Source: Microvirga ossetica
GTDB lineage: Bacteria > Pseudomonadota > Alphaproteobacteria > Rhizobiales > Beijerinckiaceae
Reading direction: 5' to 3'
Assembly: GCF_002741015.1 (NCBI RefSeq)
Contig: NZ_CP016616.1
Span: forward strand, 3,877,501-3,941,500
Length of the DNA stretch: 64,000 bases
The number at the start of each line of letters is the position of its first letter. Positions within the stretch are counted from its first letter, which is position 1. The notes beneath the pieces were generated by a model, which did not search any database, was not told where the DNA came from, and worked only from the letters and a program-made list of their open reading frames with translations. Shown piece after piece: positions 13,814-63,480 of this stretch. The position numbers and the translations under genes are program-made.

Positions 13814-14075
13814 GCGCGACGCTCATCGGCGCGTGTCTCGCGTGCGGGAGAGGGAGACCCGCACATGCCATCCCTGCCTCCGCAGCCGACAGGCGAGCGA
13901 CACTGACGACAAGCGAGCGACACTCCCTCTCCCGTGCGGGAGAGGGCCGGGGTGAGGGCAGGCCGGTGCCGGATGAGGCGCTGAGCGGGACGCACCGCAG
14001 GAGAGGGTGGACGCGCTTTGCTTGTGAAAGCCCCACCCCTGCCCCTCTCCCACCCGGGAGAGGGGAATAGCGCCG

Positions 14076-14186
14076 GTGTCATCCCCGGCGGTCCGCAGGA
14101 CCGGGAAGGGGATCCAGTCCCACGCTCTACGCTATGGATTCCCGTTCTCTCCGCTGGCCGCGCCATCTCCGGCCGGGAATGACACT
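14076..14186. repeat. Interspersed palindromic repeat (GTCATCC family)
   Basis: Starts GTGTCATCCCCGG, has CTATGGATTCCC in the middle and ends CCGGGAATGACAC. Related to the elements at 6, 22364, 33880 and 63043. Confidence 0.7.
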
Positions 14187-14338
14187 GACGGTTCGCCTCA
14201 CCCTCTCACGTCATCACCGGCCTTGTGCCGGTGATCTCGATTGTTTGGAGCGCGGCGCTTGTCCGCATCGGGATGGCCGGCACGAGGCCGGCCATGACGT
14301 GGAGGGGGACGGGAGAGGATGCGCGCGGGCAACGTTGT

Positions 14339-14382
14339 GTTCTCACTTTGTTCTTGACGGCGGCCATAAGCTCTGCTATATC
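14339..14382 (+). promoter_or_regulatory. LexA-box overlapped sigma70 promoter
   Basis: GTTC-N7-GTTC at 14339-14353 is the alphaproteobacterial LexA (SOS) box. It abuts a -35 TTGACG (14354-14359), a 17-nt spacer and a -10 TATATC (14377-14382). The second copy at 62839-62882 keeps the same box, a perfect TTGACA and 17-nt spacing, though the spacer sequences differ. Confidence 0.8.
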
Positions 14383-14386
14383 GTGA

Positions 14387-14712
14387 GGGTCTCTTCTTCG
14401 AGGGGCGCGCTCGCGAGGCGTCGCAGTGTGGAAGCAGACCCGGTCTCGCTGGTTCGCCTCGCACGCGGGCCAGGCGAGTGGCCCAGGCTGTGCGCCGCTG
14501 AATAGGGATTGGGTCGAGGCCGCCGCTGACATTGCGGTCACCGCCTCGGGCAGTCGCCGAACCGGCGCCGCCTGTCCGCCGAAACAAACCGGACGCGAAG
14601 CGGCCTCCCGGCTCTTCCATCATCACCATGCATCATCGAGCCGGGCCGCCCTTCGCGCCACCCTCGATCTCACCACAGGCTCGCAGCACATCGCTGCGGG
14701 CCTACAGGTGCT
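14387..14712 (+). ncRNA. Candidate SOS-regulated structured RNA, copy A
   Basis: Begins about 7 nt after the -10. Helices seen: P1 GGGTCT (14387) with AGACCC (14436); P2 CTCGC-TGG (14445) with CCA-G-GCGAG (14470), loop containing CTCGCAC; P3 CGAGGC (14515) with GCCTCG (14543); a long stem GCGAAG..CCCGGCTC with GAGCCGGG..CTTCGC; and terminal P4 with CACC/GGTG, GGCTC/GGGCC and GCAGC/GCTGC. The second copy keeps these helices with different bases. No U-tract is visible, so the 3' end is a guess. Frames through this region are open in both copies, but substitutions track pairing at least as well as codons. Confidence 0.7.
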
Positions 14713-14761
14713 GGCCTTCGCACAGGAAAGGAAAATGGCTCCTGGGATTCGAGCGGGCGTG

Positions 14762-45577: not shown

Positions 45578-48064
45578 TCAGATCACGAAGAAGTCGGCGT
45601 AGGTGAGCTTGGGCTTGTTGGTGAAGACCGCGATCTCGACAGCTTTTCCCGCTTTGTTGCCATCGGCGTCGTAGGACAGCACGCCCGTTTTCCGGTTGTA
45701 GATCAGGTAGTCGTTGGCGTCGTTCGGTGCGTCGAACTCGAGATAGGTCTTGGAGAGCTTCACCGGCTTCTCGAGCGAGCCCTTCTTCCCCAGCTTCGTG
45801 AAGAAGGCATTGTCGAGATAGAGCGAGTCCTTGCGTGGATCGAAATCGGTGATCGTGTCGCGGTTGCTGCTCGACGGGCGCCGGTCGAAGACCACCACAT
45901 CCTTGCCGCTGCCGGTGGAAATCCGGTCGCGCCCGAGGTCGCCATGCAGGCGATCGTTGCCGCCCGCACCCGACAGCGTGTCGTTGCCGAGCTCGCCGAA
46001 CAGGATGTCGTTGCCCGCGGTGCCGTTTTTCCGCAGAGGCGTTTTTTCGCGCACGTTGGTGACGCTCACGGCCACGTCCTGAACATGGCTGCCGCCAAAG
46101 GCGTCTGTTACCTTGACGCGCAGATTGTGGGATGTCGCAACCTCGTAATTGAGCTTGGCGCCCGACTTGAGCTTGATCGTGCTGCCCGAGACCTCGAAAA
46201 GCTGATGCGTAGCCGGCGCGTTGCCCGCGTCGACGAGCGTGAAGGTGTGTCTGTCGGACTGATCGAGATCGACGGTCGAGAGTGTGCCCGCCGTTGTGCC
46301 CGCGGCTGCCGTTTCCTGGATCGATCCGCTGACGGCGATGCTCTCCGGCGCCGAATTGATCTTGAAGCGCTGGAAGAACAGGCCTCCGTTCCCGTCTTGC
46401 TGGTCAGGCTGATCGCCGACACCCTCCCAGCCTACCAAGAGCGTACCATCCGCCGTGAATTCCAGGAACGTGCCCATCTGAGCGCCGGTCTTCGAGGTGT
46501 TGACCAGGATCTCGCCGCCGACGCGTTGGCCATTGGCATCGAAGGCCTGCATGAAGAGGCCGGTTTCGCTGCCGTCGGATCCGTTCCAGGCCACCACGAA
46601 GCTGCCGTTCGGCAATACGCGGATCATGGCGCCGCTCTGGACCCCTTCCGTGCTGCTGTTGACGCGCACCTCCGCGCCGATCCTCGTGCCGTTGACGTCG
46701 AAGAGCTGCATGAAGATTCCGGCATCGTCCTCGTGTCCCTGTCGCGTACTCTTGCCCGACCAGGTTAGAACGGAACGCCCGATGGTAGGGAGATACGCAA
46801 AGTTCGTATCGAGAAAGTCGCCGACTGCCTGGAAGCGGATTTCAGGGCCGATCTTGCCCCCGGACGGATCGAGCACCTGGACGAATAGATCATCGGGATC
46901 CTGCGCCTCGGGGTCACCGATTGTCCAAGCTGTGACGTAGTGCTTGACGACGTATCGGCTGGTGCTCTCATTGAACTGGTAGCTGGTGAAGATCCGGAGG
47001 TTGGACTGTTCCCCGTCGACGGTCGTGTTGAGACGCGTTTCGGAGCCGATCTTCCTCCCATGGGCATCGAAGCGCTGGTAGAAGAGCCCATGATCGTCCT
47101 CCTGGCCCTCCTGCGTGCCATTCCCCTGCCAGAATATCAGCGGGCCGCCGCTCTCCATCGTCAGGGTGGCTGCTCTGATCTGATCTCCGTCGACGGTTGT
47201 ATTGACGGTTTTTGCCTCGCCGTCGGCTGTGCCATCGGCGTTGAAGACTTGGTAGTAGATGTCCCTGATTTGGGCGGTGACGGGAAGATTCCAGAAGGTC
47301 GCCCATTTGCCATCCGCCAGGCTGCGGGCGGATGGCGTGATGCTCGCGTTGGAGATGAGGGTGAATTCTTCCCCGACCTTCGCACCATTGCGGTCGAAGG
47401 CCTGTTGAAACGCCTCGGATCCAGCACGATAGGTGACGACAAATCCGCCGTTCGAGAGAGCCGTGACGCCACTCAGCTTTTCTTCACGCCCCTCCACGGC
47501 AACGTTCACGCGCGTCTCCCCTCCGATGAAGTCGCCATCCTCGTCCATGAGGCGGAAGAAGATGCCTGCGTCGTCCGTCTGATCTTCCTGAGTGCCTTTT
47601 CCGTTCCAGAGGACGATCGAATTGGCGTTGCGCAGGAACACGTTCCGCCAGTCTTCCGATATGCCGTTCTCTGTCTCGTTGATCCTGAGCTGCTGCCCGG
47701 GAGTACCGTTCATGTCAAAGGTGCGGAAATAGGCGTTGCCGCCGACAGCAGGATCGTCCGAGACTGACTTCCAGATGGAGCCCCATCCGACGCCAGGGAG
47801 GGCGACCGAAACGAAATCCGGTTTGACCTCGCCGTCCGTCATGGCGTTGACGCGAACCTCTCTGCCGATCTTCACCCCGTTGGCATCGAAAAGCTGCTGA
47901 AAATAGCCGTTTGTACCCTCCTGTCCCTGAACGGTTCCGTTGCCGACCCATTGCAGGATGAAACGCCCGTCCGGCAGCCTGATGAACTGGGGTGCAGCCT
48001 GCACTCCGCCCATAGACGTGTGGATGCGGGTTTCCCCGCCGAGGCTGACAACATTGTAAGGCAT
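45578..48064 (-). CDS. Secreted RTX/cadherin-like calcium-binding protein 1
   Basis: 828 residues without an N-terminal signal. Residues ~1-590 consist of about ten ~55-residue repeats of the type [28 protein letters not shown]. A cadherin-like domain follows (ESIAVSGSIQETAAAGTTAGTLSTVDLD), then RTX nonapeptides ([28 protein letters not shown]) and a C-terminus ending LTYADFFVI, typical of type I secretion signals. It should be exported through a type I system and bind calcium outside. No T1SS genes are nearby. It is paralogous to the gene at 48899. Confidence 0.85.
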   Translation of the reverse strand: MPYNVVSLGGETRIHTSMGGVQAAPQFIRLPDGRFILQWVGNGTVQGQEGTNGYFQQLFDANGVKIGREVRVNAMTDGEVKPDFVSVALPGVGWGSIWKSVSDDPAVGGNAYFRTFDMNGTPGQQLRINETENGISEDWRNVFLRNANSIVLWNGKGTQEDQTDDAGIFFRLMDEDGDFIGGETRVNVAVEGREEKLSGVTALSNGGFVVTYRAGSEAFQQAFDRNGAKVGEEFTLISNASITPSARSLADGKWATFWNLPVTAQIRDIYYQVFNADGTADGEAKTVNTTVDGDQIRAATLTMESGGPLIFWQGNGTQEGQEDDHGLFYQRFDAHGRKIGSETRLNTTVDGEQSNLRIFTSYQFNESTSRYVVKHYVTAWTIGDPEAQDPDDLFVQVLDPSGGKIGPEIRFQAVGDFLDTNFAYLPTIGRSVLTWSGKSTRQGHEDDAGIFMQLFDVNGTRIGAEVRVNSSTEGVQSGAMIRVLPNGSFVVAWNGSDGSETGLFMQAFDANGQRVGGEILVNTSKTGAQMGTFLEFTADGTLLVGWEGVGDQPDQQDGNGGLFFQRFKINSAPESIAVSGSIQETAAAGTTAGTLSTVDLDQSDRHTFTLVDAGNAPATHQLFEVSGSTIKLKSGAKLNYEVATSHNLRVKVTDAFGGSHVQDVAVSVTNVREKTPLRKNGTAGNDILFGELGNDTLSGAGGNDRLHGDLGRDRISTGSGKDVVVFDRRPSSSNRDTITDFDPRKDSLYLDNAFFTKLGKKGSLEKPVKLSKTYLEFDAPNDANDYLIYNRKTGVLSYDADGNKAGKAVEIAVFTNKPKLTYADFFVI

Positions 48065-48898: not shown

Positions 48899-51214
48899 TC
48901 AGACGATCAGGAAGTCGGCGGAGGTCAGCTTGAGGTTCTTGGTGAGGGCAGCGATCTCGACCGCCTTCTTCGACCCGGAACCATCCGCGTCGTAGGAGAG
49001 GACGCCGGTCTTCTTGTTGTAGATCAGGTAATCGTCTTTCTCCCTCGCCTTGGTGTCGATGACGAAGAACTCCTTGTCGAGCTTGCCTTTCTTCGTCAGG
49101 CTGCCCTTGCCCAGTTTCTTGAAGACCGCATTGTCGAGCCAGATCGTGTCGTCCTTCACGCTAAAGTCGGCGATCCGGTCGAGATTGGTCTTCTTGTTGG
49201 GAGCCTTGTTGAAAACGAAGATGTCCCGGCCCACGCCGCCCTTCAGGAGGTCCTTGCCTGCGCCGCCGTAGAGGAGATCGTTCCCAGCATCGCCGTCGAG
49301 GGTGTCGTTCCCGCTGCCGCCCTGCAGCGTGTCGTTGCCCAGCTCGCCGAAGAGCGCATCGTCGCCGGGCGTGCCGGTCCTGACGAAGGGTGTCGTCTCG
49401 AGAGTGTTCGTAACGGTGACGGTCAGATCGCGAACATGGCTTTCCCCATAACCGTCATCGGCCTCGATGCGCAGGGTGAGAGACGGTGCCGTCTCATGGT
49501 CGAGCGTCGCGCCGGGCTTGAGACGCAAGGTGGTGCCGGCGATCTCGAACAGGTTCTGATGCGAGAGCAAGGTGAAGGCGAGGCTGTCGCCGTCCGGGTC
49601 GGTGCCCGACAGAACTCCCACCGCATCGCCGCCTTTCGCGTCCTCCCGAATGGAGGCCCCGGCCAGAGCGATGCTCGTCGGCGCTGCGTTGAACCCGAAG
49701 CGCTGGAAGAAGAGGCCCCAGCTGTCCTCCTGATCCTTCTGCGTGCCTCGGCCTGACCAGATGACCGCCCACGAGCCGTCGGGAAGGACGTTGATCTGGG
49801 GCACGCTCTGGTAGCCGTCGACCGACGTCGCCACGCGGGTCTCGCCGCCGACGCGCCGGAAATCGGCGTCGAAGACCTGCTGAAAGACGCCCGCGTCATC
49901 CTGCTGCCCTGGCTGAGTGCCTGCGCCGTTCCAAGTGAGGACGAAGTGGCCACTCGGAAGGGCCGCGGCCTGCAGGTTGAAGATCTCGCCATTCGTCGAG
50001 GTGTTGATCCGCGTCTCACCGCCGACCTTCCGGCCCTGCGCGTCAAAGCGCTGGAAGAACAGGCCGTCAGGATCCTCCTGGCCCTCCTGCGTGCCAGTGC
50101 CTCCCCAAAAGAGCACGAGGCCGCCGTCCCGCAGCCGCACGGTTTGCGCGGTCAGGGACTGAGAGTTTGAAGTGGATGCGGAAACGCGGACAGGTTCGCC
50201 GTCCGAAGTGCCATCGGCGTTGTAGACCTGGTAATAGGCGTCGGTGACGTTGCCCGGGGTTATTCCGCTCCAGGCCACCATCCATTTGCCGTCCTCCAGG
50301 GCATAGACGAGGGGAGGGTAATATTCCCCACCCTGGCTCGGACCCTCGGGGACGGTGATTTCGCGAATCTTCGTGCCGTCTGCGTCGAAGAGCTGCTGGA
50401 AATACCCTCCGGGATTGCCATAGACGATCACGAACCTGCCATCCGACAGCTGTGCATGGCCGCCGCTAGAAAAACTCTCGGCGCGACCCTCCACGGCCTC
50501 GTTGACGCGGGTCGCCGCCTCGCCCAGCGGTTCGAAGTTCTTGTCGAAGCGGCGCAGCAAAACGTCTGGATCCTCGCCGGTGTCGTTGATCTTCGTGTTC
50601 CAGATGGCAGTGAATCCGTCGTCCGTCTCGACCACGGAAAGGTCGTACAATCCGGCGGTGCCGGACCCGCCGACTGCCTGCGGGTCGCCGACCGTGGCGC
50701 CCGTCCGATCGAAACGCTGCATGTAAACGTCTTCGCGGCCCTCGCTGCTTTCGCCGCCCCAGATTGCGACGAAGCCACCGTCCGCCTGCGGAAAGGTCCA
50801 CACCTGCCAGTTCAGGATCTCCCCTTGCTCGGCGTCGAGCTGGATCTCGCTCCCGACTTTTCCCTGAGCGTCGAAAATCTGGACATAGGCACCGAGCGGT
50901 TTGGAGACCCCGTCGTGCGTCACCCATGAGGTTGCCCAGCGTCCGCCGGGAAGGGCGATCGTCCTGACGGTGCTGTCAAACGAGGCCGCGGCCGTCGTGT
51001 TGACCTGCACTTCAGCGCCGATGCGGTTTCCCAGACGGTCGAAACGCTGCTGAAAGACGCCCGGCGCCACCCCCTCGTCCCCGTTGTCCACGATCATCCA
51101 GGTGGCGACCATGGTCCCGTCGGAGAGGGTGGTGAGAAGCCTTTCGGCATTTCTCTCCTCTCCCGCGGTGGTCGTGTGGGTACGAGTTTCAGAACCGCGG
51201 CGAACGTAAGGCAT
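48899..51214 (-). CDS. Secreted RTX/cadherin-like calcium-binding protein 2
   Basis: 771 residues, same architecture as the 45578 gene: N-terminal ~55-residue repeats ([23 protein letters not shown], then [25 protein letters not shown]), a cadherin-like domain, RTX nonapeptides ([35 protein letters not shown]) and an end LTSADFLIV. The starts are also alike ([18 protein letters not shown] here, MPYNVVSLGGETRIHTSMGG there). The pair probably arose by tandem duplication with the small exported gene trapped between. Confidence 0.85.
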
Positions 51215-62345: not shown

Positions 62346-62504
62346 CGCCCGTCTCGTCCAGCTCTCTCAAGCCCCACCTCGTCCCGGGGATCCACGTCTT
62401 GACAGCGCAGAGGGTCGCAAGACGTGGGTGGCCGGATCGAGTCCAGCCATGACGGCGAGGGGAGTGGCGATCTTCGATGTCAAAGAGCGATGTCAAACAG
62501 CCAG

Positions 62505-62832
62505 CACCATGGGGCCCGGAGCCGTTTGGCTCCGAGCCTTTTGGTGCGATCGAGGGTGGCGCGAAGGGCGGCCCGGCTCGATGATGCATGGTGATGATGG
62601 AAGAGCCGGGAGGCCGCTTCGCGCACGGCTTTTTTAGGCGGACAGGCGGTGCCGGTTCGGTGACTGCGCCAGGCGGGAACCGCAACGTCAGCGGGGGCCT
62701 GGGACCAATCCCTATTCAGCGGCACGCAGCCTGGGCCTCCCGTCGACAGGGGTGCGAGACCTGTCACGGGACCGTGCCTGCTCCCACACTGCGACGCCTC
62801 GCGAGCGCGCCCCTCGTCAGGAGCAGATCCTG
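62505..62832 (-). ncRNA. Candidate SOS-regulated structured RNA, copy B
   Basis: Starts about 7 nt after the -10 on the minus strand. Helices: P1 CTGCTCC with GGAGCAG; P2 TCCCGTGACAGG with CCTGTC-G-ACGGGA around a loop with TCTCGCAC (62738-62771); P3 CCAGGC with GCCTGG; the invariant long stem around TTCCATCATCACC; and P4 with CACC/GGTG, GGCTC/GGGCC and GGAGCC/GGCTCC (62505-62546). Compared with copy A, P1, P2 and P4 use different bases but still pair, and P3 shows a clean G-C to C-G exchange. The 3' end is estimated. Confidence 0.7.
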
Positions 62833-62838
62833 CGCAAG

Positions 62839-62882
62839 GGTATAGCTAAGATTGGGAATGATGTCAAGAACAAAGTGAGAAC
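62839..62882 (-). promoter_or_regulatory. LexA-box overlapped sigma70 promoter, copy B
   Basis: Minus strand: GTTC-N7-GTTC (62868-62882), then TTGACA (62862-62867), 17-nt spacer, TATACC (62839-62844). The spacer differs from copy A while the box, hexamer positions and spacing are kept. Confidence 0.85.
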
Positions 62883-63042
62883 ATAACGTTGCCCGCGCTC
62901 TTCCGCTCACCCCCTCCTGTCACCCTCCCACGTCATGGCCGGCCTCGTGCCGGCCATCCCGAACGGTGAGGCGCGGCGCCTTTCGCATCGAGATCCCCGG
63001 GACAAGCCCGGGGATGACGTGAGAGGATGAGGCGAACCGTCA

Positions 63043-63152
63043 GTGTCAGTCCCGGCCGGAGATGGCGCGGCCAGCGGAGAGAACGGGAATCCATAGCGTA
63101 GAGCGTGGGACTGGATCCCCTTCCCGGTCCTGCGGACCGCCGGGGATGACAC
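63043..63152. repeat. Interspersed palindromic repeat (GTCATCC family)
   Basis: Reverse complement of the 14076-14186 element, differing at only a few positions. It is one block of the large inverted repeat. Confidence 0.75.
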
Positions 63153-63480
63153 CGGCGCTATTCCCCTCTCCCGGGCGGGAGAGGGGCAGGGGTGGGGCTT
63201 TCACAAGCAAAGCGCGTCCACCCTCTCCTGCGGTGCGTCCCGCTCAGCGCCTCATCCGGCACCGGCCTGCCCTCACCCCGACCCTCTCCCGACCGGGAGA
63301 GGGAATGTCGCTTGCCCGTCGGCTGCGGATCGCCGGGCGGCGGCTCGGGATTGGGCAGTGGAGGGAGACGGGCGATGCGGCAGGCGATTTCCTGCTCGGG
63401 GTTTTCCCGCCCATCGTGTTAAGAAGGGCGACGGTTCTCCTTATCGATGAGGCATCCGCGGGAGCGGGCGACGGTGACAC

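Follow-up and report, generated by a model that had tools for sequence, protein, structure and literature searches.

A family of structured noncoding RNA genes with LexA-type boxes in Microvirga ossetica and its congeners

The RNA genes and their promoters

The window analysed here is a stretch of 64,000 nucleotides from Microvirga ossetica (contig NZ_CP016616.1, positions 3,877,501 to 3,941,500), and it carries two copies, on opposite strands, of a structured noncoding RNA gene. A first-pass annotation of the stretch had described the two segments as a diverged pair with a selected RNA fold; both lie where it placed them, and they align to each other with ∼81% identity. The gene unit is intergenic and ∼400 bp long, with an RNA of ∼330 nt in its long form and ∼260 nt in its short form. 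Just upstream of both copies (14339–14382 and 62839–62882, the latter on the minus strand) are a promoter and a LexA-type box that the annotation had not listed; the box abuts the −35 element of the promoter, which is of the sigma-70 type. The features at the level of the gene are as follows.

14339–14353, plus strand: LexA-type box of copy 1, GTTC-N7-GTTC
14354–14382, plus strand: promoter of copy 1, with −35 TTGACG (14354–14359), a 17-nt spacer and −10 TATATC (14377–14382)
14387–14716, plus strand: copy 1 of the structured noncoding RNA; begins close to the predicted +1, putative 3′ end placed where homology ends
62491–62832, minus strand: structured noncoding RNA, copy 2
62839–62867, minus strand: promoter of copy 2, with TTGACA (62867–62862), a 17-nt spacer and TATACC (62844–62839)
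62868–62882, minus strand: LexA-type box of copy 2

The element had been taken for a two-copy one, but 19 members of this noncoding RNA gene family were detected in the M. ossetica genome, the two segments among them. Searching this genome (9.63 Mb, six contigs) gave 18 copies, all of them on the 5.84-Mb contig C1, in addition to one divergent copy. A scan for GTTC-N7-GTTCTTG returned 23 matches, compared with four for the backwards control; 18 of the 23 belong to the RNA copies and another precedes the divergent copy (L215), where the layout is the same. This divergent class of the RNA (L215:1500–1990), with its LexA-type box, lies near chorismate mutase-like and metX-like genes (named by eye).

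The promoter arrangement is general in the genus. Among 155 distinct copies, drawn from 195 extracted stretches, GTTC-N7-GTTC is present at the promoter in 149, lying 58 to 68 bases upstream of the conserved core. A TTGAC-spacer-TATA-like pattern is present as well in 138 copies, and the spacer is 17 bases in 137 of these. The six copies without the box are L033, L153, L178 and three from strain YIM 77505. Of the three divergent-class copies, two have the box with TTGAC and one has the box with TTTAC; the copies in genome G023 are also boxed. GTTC-N7-GTTC is given as the Caulobacter SOS box in PMC9578287 and PMC6237742. All three recA genes of M. ossetica above the family cut-off, of which C1 has one and C2 has two, have the same pattern upstream. 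The hint of the first-pass annotation at DNA damage gains support from the LexA-type box, which nearly all of the Microvirga copies examined carry. As a separate observation, the genome has five LexA_DNA_bind matches (L232–L236), all with the same score and in frames of 115 amino acids. Three lie on C1 and two on C3, and they are possibly a repeated element.

The fold and its compensatory changes

Consensus structures were computed with RNAalifold for 71 long and 80 short copies and read together across both sets; four untypable copies (L032, L100, L186 and L199) are left out of the counts from here on. The nested consensus of the long set draws helix P0 without P1, and that of the short set P1 without P0; as RNAalifold cannot draw a pseudoknot, the two folds were combined. 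The 5′ strand of P0 lies inside the P1 loop and its 3′ strand near the 3′ end, which makes P0 and P1 a pseudoknot. The elements, with the positions in copy 1 (all on the plus strand), are the following.

14387–14441: P1 helix, 5′ strand 14387–14396 and 3′ strand ∼14430–14441
14399–14405: 5′ strand of P0, CGAGGGG, in the P1 loop; pairs with 14659–14666 and forms a pseudoknot with P1
14408–14420: small hairpin CGCTCGCGAGGCG with the palindrome CTCGCGAG
14440–14592: P3 long-range helix, CCGGT (14440–14444) with ACCGG (14588–14592), strands read by eye
14446–14478: P2 hairpin with the CTCGCAC loop
14479–14578: middle domain, here in its long form (the other form is short), holding the GCTGAATAGGGATTGG block and the helix GTCGAGGC/GCCTCGG; limits by eye
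14594–14657: P5 long hairpin
14659–14666: 3′ strand of P0, CACCCTCG
14677–14703: closing 3′ hairpin AGGCTCGCAGC/GCTGCGGGCCT, named P4 in the first-pass annotation

The helix differences between the window copies to which that annotation had drawn attention are present in the sequence (CGAGGC/GCCTCG versus CCAGGC/GCCTGG and, in the 3′ hairpin, GCAGC/GCTGC versus GGAGCC/GGCTCC), and the re-paired P1 and the P2 stem with its CTCGCAC loop were confirmed in both. P3 also differs, reading CCGGU/ACCGG in copy 1 and CACGGU/GCCGUG in copy 2 (by eye). The GCTGAATAGGGATTGG block had been called invariant, and this did not hold: four of the 18 copies in the same genome read GCTGACTAGGG, and 80 of the 151 typable copies lack the domain that holds the block or have another in its place.

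Evidence for selected pairing comes from a swap test, which compares the pairing of a copy's own strands with that of strands swapped between copies; it is free of any alignment, and its permutations ignore relatedness. For P1, own strands pair better in all 102 of the 102 copies with distinct P1 strands (0/20000 permutations). The corresponding counts are 81/86 for P2, 130/140 for the 3′ hairpin, 89/113 for P5 and 53/61 for the middle domain (0/5000 permutations in each case). In the short form, the same test gives only weak support to the P3-region helix (27/45; 30/5000 permutations).

Double substitutions in the RNAalifold alignments fall in several of these helices: in the long set at 11 of 13 pairs in P2, ten of 12 in a middle helix and six of ten in the 3′ hairpin, and in the short set at seven of eight pairs in P1. 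None was seen in the long set at the six pairs of P0 or the ten pairs of the outer P5 helix. In a model-fitted alignment of 69 copies, including some from outside Microvirga, six of the seven P1 pairs have changed on both sides, with 104 double-changed cells against 37.8 in shuffles (0/500), and the paired share falls from 96.5% to at most 57.8% in slid controls. The small hairpin at 14408–14420 has no double changes in this alignment. P0 is nearly invariant within Microvirga; GAGGGG/CCCUC becomes AAGGGG/CCCCUU in L307 and L309 and GAGGGA/UCCCUC in L215 (pairings by eye), and L250 (GAAGGGG) has no equally good P0 partner by eye. These cross-family changes support P0 as a probable closing helix, pseudoknotted with P1.

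The most conserved parts of the RNA are the pseudoknotted core and the junctions, not one exposed antisense stretch. The self-complementary octamer CTCGCGAG is present in the central hairpin of most Microvirga copies, with the variants CTCATGAG in L243, L250 and L296 and CTCTAGAG in L248 and L252. It is incomplete in L215, L294, L297, L301, L302, L244, L246 and L254. Dimer formation through this palindromic loop is only a proposal, since several copies do not keep the octamer whole.

A coding function was checked by looking for starts common to the copies and at the lengths of gaps. At most 39 of the 71 long and 40 of the 80 short copies have in common a plus-strand start followed by 12 or more open codons, and 11% of gap lengths are divisible by three, most gaps being single bases; a coding gene is disfavoured on both counts. 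Shared stop columns are commoner than shared starts (as many as 62 frames among the long copies, with several starts per copy), a count that would not by itself exclude coding. Compensatory helix changes were found over many homologues, and the selected RNA fold proposed in the first-pass annotation is borne out by the covariation and strand-swap checks on many more homologues, together with the lack of a conserved reading frame.

According to cmscan, the window has no match to Rfam at the gathering thresholds, and ten loci searched with E-values up to 1 gave only microRNA families, MicL, whalefall-1 and skipping-rope, none of which reached its gathering score. The Methylobacterium-1 RNA, which the first-pass annotation had named as one candidate, is not favoured by these results. 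The entry RF01712 appears under that name in a table of PMC2864571, where it is reported from a related genus. A literature search of open-licence papers found no description of the present RNA, and the family is apparently undescribed.

Distribution and placement of the copies

In a search at the DNA level 31 of 61 genomes gave matches, namely M. ossetica itself, 30 of 36 congeners and none of 24 others. R2, a model built on the 3′ domain, matched 40 of the 48 genomes of the genus, M. ossetica included, with 1 to 34 matches each. The remaining eight were searched with R1, a model built on the 5′ domain, which added G023, a genome with two divergent-class copies like L215 and no R2 match. The two models combined place the RNA in 41 of 48 Microvirga genomes. 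Across the order R1 matched three of 297 genomes, again including M. ossetica, and in a class-wide draw of 385 it matched this genome only; both surveys score few candidates per genome, and weak relatives can be missed.

Occurrence in other Hyphomicrobiales is patchy. Two distant hits, G249 and G051, were followed into their surroundings. Among the genomes around G249 five of 40 matched at E-values up to 0.01 (one of them G051, from another family), and around G051 two of 40 did, with 2 to 8 matches in each matched genome. Of the non-Microvirga candidates, L295, L298, L300 and L306 have no motif, and L299, L303 and L304 (E-value 0.005) gave no clear copy; in the A6 set of 58 rows, seven are weak opposite-strand matches. 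Upstream of L294, L297, L301, L302, L307 and L309 the place of the LexA box is taken by CTTATCCCCGC or a close variant, which perhaps marks another shared regulator. A public pattern scan returned at least 120 stretches, and among those listed 117 are in Microvirga records and three in Rhizobiales bacterium YIM 77505. No match to the RNA was found in IMG/VR (exact 24-base pattern) or, using blastn, in PLSDB and INPHARED, which speaks against a phage, plasmid or virus origin.

The neighbours of the copies are often kept between species: 62 of 131 copies fall into 20 groups that have neighbours on both sides in common across genomes. Within a genome, no pair of copies has both flanking genes in common and one pair has the downstream side in common, which fits stand-alone genes. 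With two N-bearing copies left out, mean identity is 0.81 for same-genome pairs (429 pairs), 0.74 for syntenic pairs (69) and 0.67 for the others (7758); with M. ossetica left out, the values are 0.78, 0.745 and 0.665. When 49 syntenic copies are placed on a tree, the genome label requires 22 changes (mean of 60 shuffles 37.8, least 35), and the position label requires 39, no better than shuffles (mean 39.9, least 36). Long and short forms are mixed in nine of 17 syntenic groups. As gene order is often kept across species and yet the copies group by genome, we read this as probable concerted evolution among the copies of one genome. Repeated insertion at the same places may offer an alternative.

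In five genomes all 127 of 127 matches are on contig C1, with up to 34 copies in G017 (G020, among the genomes in this count, is flagged as 18% contaminated). The chance of such placement under random fall is ∼7e-17, calculated from rounded genome sizes for the four genomes of known C1 extent, in which 11 to 46% of the genome is outside C1. The 34 copies on C1 of G017 are spaced more evenly than random (coefficient of variation 0.52, P 0.0001). Such spacing was not seen in G000, G020 or G036 and is borderline in G341, where the C1 extent was assumed; even chromosomal spacing was therefore dropped as a general feature.

Two further repeats were noted in the window. A block of 284 bases upstream of both RNA copies (13955–14238, and ∼62990–63275 on the minus strand) is 97.5% identical between them, while the RNA is only ∼81% identical. 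Among the 18 loci of the genome it is whole at two, partial at two and represented by 45 bases at one, and for this reason it looks like a separate dispersed repeat. A direct repeat of 143 bases (47025–47167 and 50001–50143) is 72% identical, with its copies 2976 bases apart.

A probable SOS-controlled RNA and the alternatives

The best explanation, and in our judgement a probable one, is a family of LexA-repressed, SOS-induced structured noncoding RNA genes. In undamaged cells LexA would occupy the box and block RNA polymerase; upon DNA damage, RecA-driven cleavage of LexA would release all of the copies at once, and one RNA would be made in a burst. Gene conversion between the copies of a genome would keep them similar. 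The RNA would be a structured molecule acting in trans, and neither an mRNA nor a cis leader nor a plain antisense RNA. The family, its fold, the positions of box and promoter, the distribution and the grouping by genome are computed results; LexA binding, induction, the transcript ends and gene conversion as the cause of the grouping are inferences. That copies are kept similar within a genome, together with their number, suggests that dose and uniformity matter.

Several results weigh against this explanation. A tree-aware covariation test on MAFFT alignments passes few pairs, six in the long set (four of them at least 85% paired) and two in the short set (one at least 85% paired); since misregistered P1 strands are visible in those alignments, the swap tests and model-based alignments were added. 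In the 69-copy alignment the number of pairs changed on both sides (six) is not above that of shuffles (mean 5.5), unlike the cell counts and the score. Generic promoter scans list no consensus promoter for either window copy, and a generic terminator scan has no terminator-like match at the 3′ hairpin and lists no T-run terminator. GTTC-N7-GTTC is expected 1.7 times by chance in the window, so the evidence from the box rests on its position, and the stretch examined upstream of lexA showed no exact box. The readable relatives outside Microvirga have no LexA-type box, from which it follows that SOS control would not be part of the basic function of the RNA and that the two are separable. Neither model found the RNA in seven of the 48 Microvirga genomes, and it seems dispensable. 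Finally, once M. ossetica is left out, paralogues are only a little more alike than syntenic copies.

An improbable but more serious rival is a selfish dispersed element, a 400-bp unit that spreads through the chromosome with the help of a trans-acting enzyme and uses the LexA box to time its spread to damage, as many prophages and integrative elements do. It would suit the multiple copies, their patchy occurrence around G249 and G051, their grouping by genome and the failure of position to predict sequence better than shuffles, the last of which raised its weight. In the YIM 77505 set (L100, L186 and L199), the homology of L186 and L199 starts near the predicted transcript start and the upstream sequences differ (by eye). 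Set against it are the common neighbours on both sides of nearly half of the copies, the confinement to C1 and the lack of any match in the plasmid, phage and viral collections. The same box might instead act at the level of DNA, with many sites titrating LexA, and at least 18 boxed promoters in this genome and up to 34 copies in another are in keeping with that; with RNA pairing under selection across 300 nt of sequence after the box, and with relatives that keep the RNA but not the box, this is the least likely of the readings considered.

The remaining alternatives concern what the transcript does. An SOS-induced type I toxin mRNA, that is a structured transcript encoding a short hydrophobic peptide in the manner of tisB or dinQ, is very unlikely: the SOS box and strong structure resemble the tisB mRNA, but the start-codon and gap-length counts given above speak against a common short peptide. 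A cis-acting leader or riboswitch for a downstream gene would fit the size and compact fold, and is slightly less likely again. Copies in one genome adjoin different genes instead of sharing a downstream one, copy 1 faces a convergent autotransporter gene, and a hairpin closes the homology.

The RNA can also be set beside known systems. GOLLD, ROOL and OLE are long, highly structured noncoding bacterial RNAs whose function is unknown or partly known; going by their general descriptions, the Microvirga RNA stands apart in its many paralogues on one chromosome, its near-universal LexA-type box and its lack of matches in phage or viral collections. Listeria LhrC is likewise a multicopy, stress-induced small RNA. 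It comes from another phylum, has another regulator and has fewer copies. Escherichia coli tisB mRNA and dinQ are SOS-controlled structured transcripts too, but no shared coding frame was found in the Microvirga RNA, which forms a family of up to 34 genes. The Caulobacter damage-induced small RNAs such as ChvR (PMC6237742) are also alphaproteobacterial RNAs linked to DNA damage; that study reports that its nine induced small RNAs have no SOS box close to their start sites, in contrast to the boxed promoters described here.

Returning to the proposed LexA-controlled RNA, a trans-acting molecule with a protein partner is favoured by the conserved pseudoknotted core and junctions, in place of one exposed antisense stretch, and by the copy number and homogeneity, which suggest that dose matters. 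That the RNA binds a protein or assembles into a ribonucleoprotein is a guess, which we hold only tentatively. More doubtful still is a reading that joins these points, in which a large share of the SOS response of Microvirga, judged by promoter count, would be RNA and not protein: 18 to 34 genes, all encoding one RNA, would be released together, a core loop that is self-complementary in most copies (as CUCGCGAG or, in other lineages, as CUCAUGAG and CUCUAGAG) would help to build an RNA or RNA–protein complex for damage survival, and RecA-dependent gene conversion would keep its dose uniform.

If the LexA-controlled family is real, a set of up to 34 RNA genes, confined to one contig in the five genomes checked and clustering by genome, would be an unusual output of the SOS response. 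It opens the direct question of what a burst of one structured RNA does after DNA damage, and the fold and the promoters offer handles for northern blots, structure probing and pull-downs.
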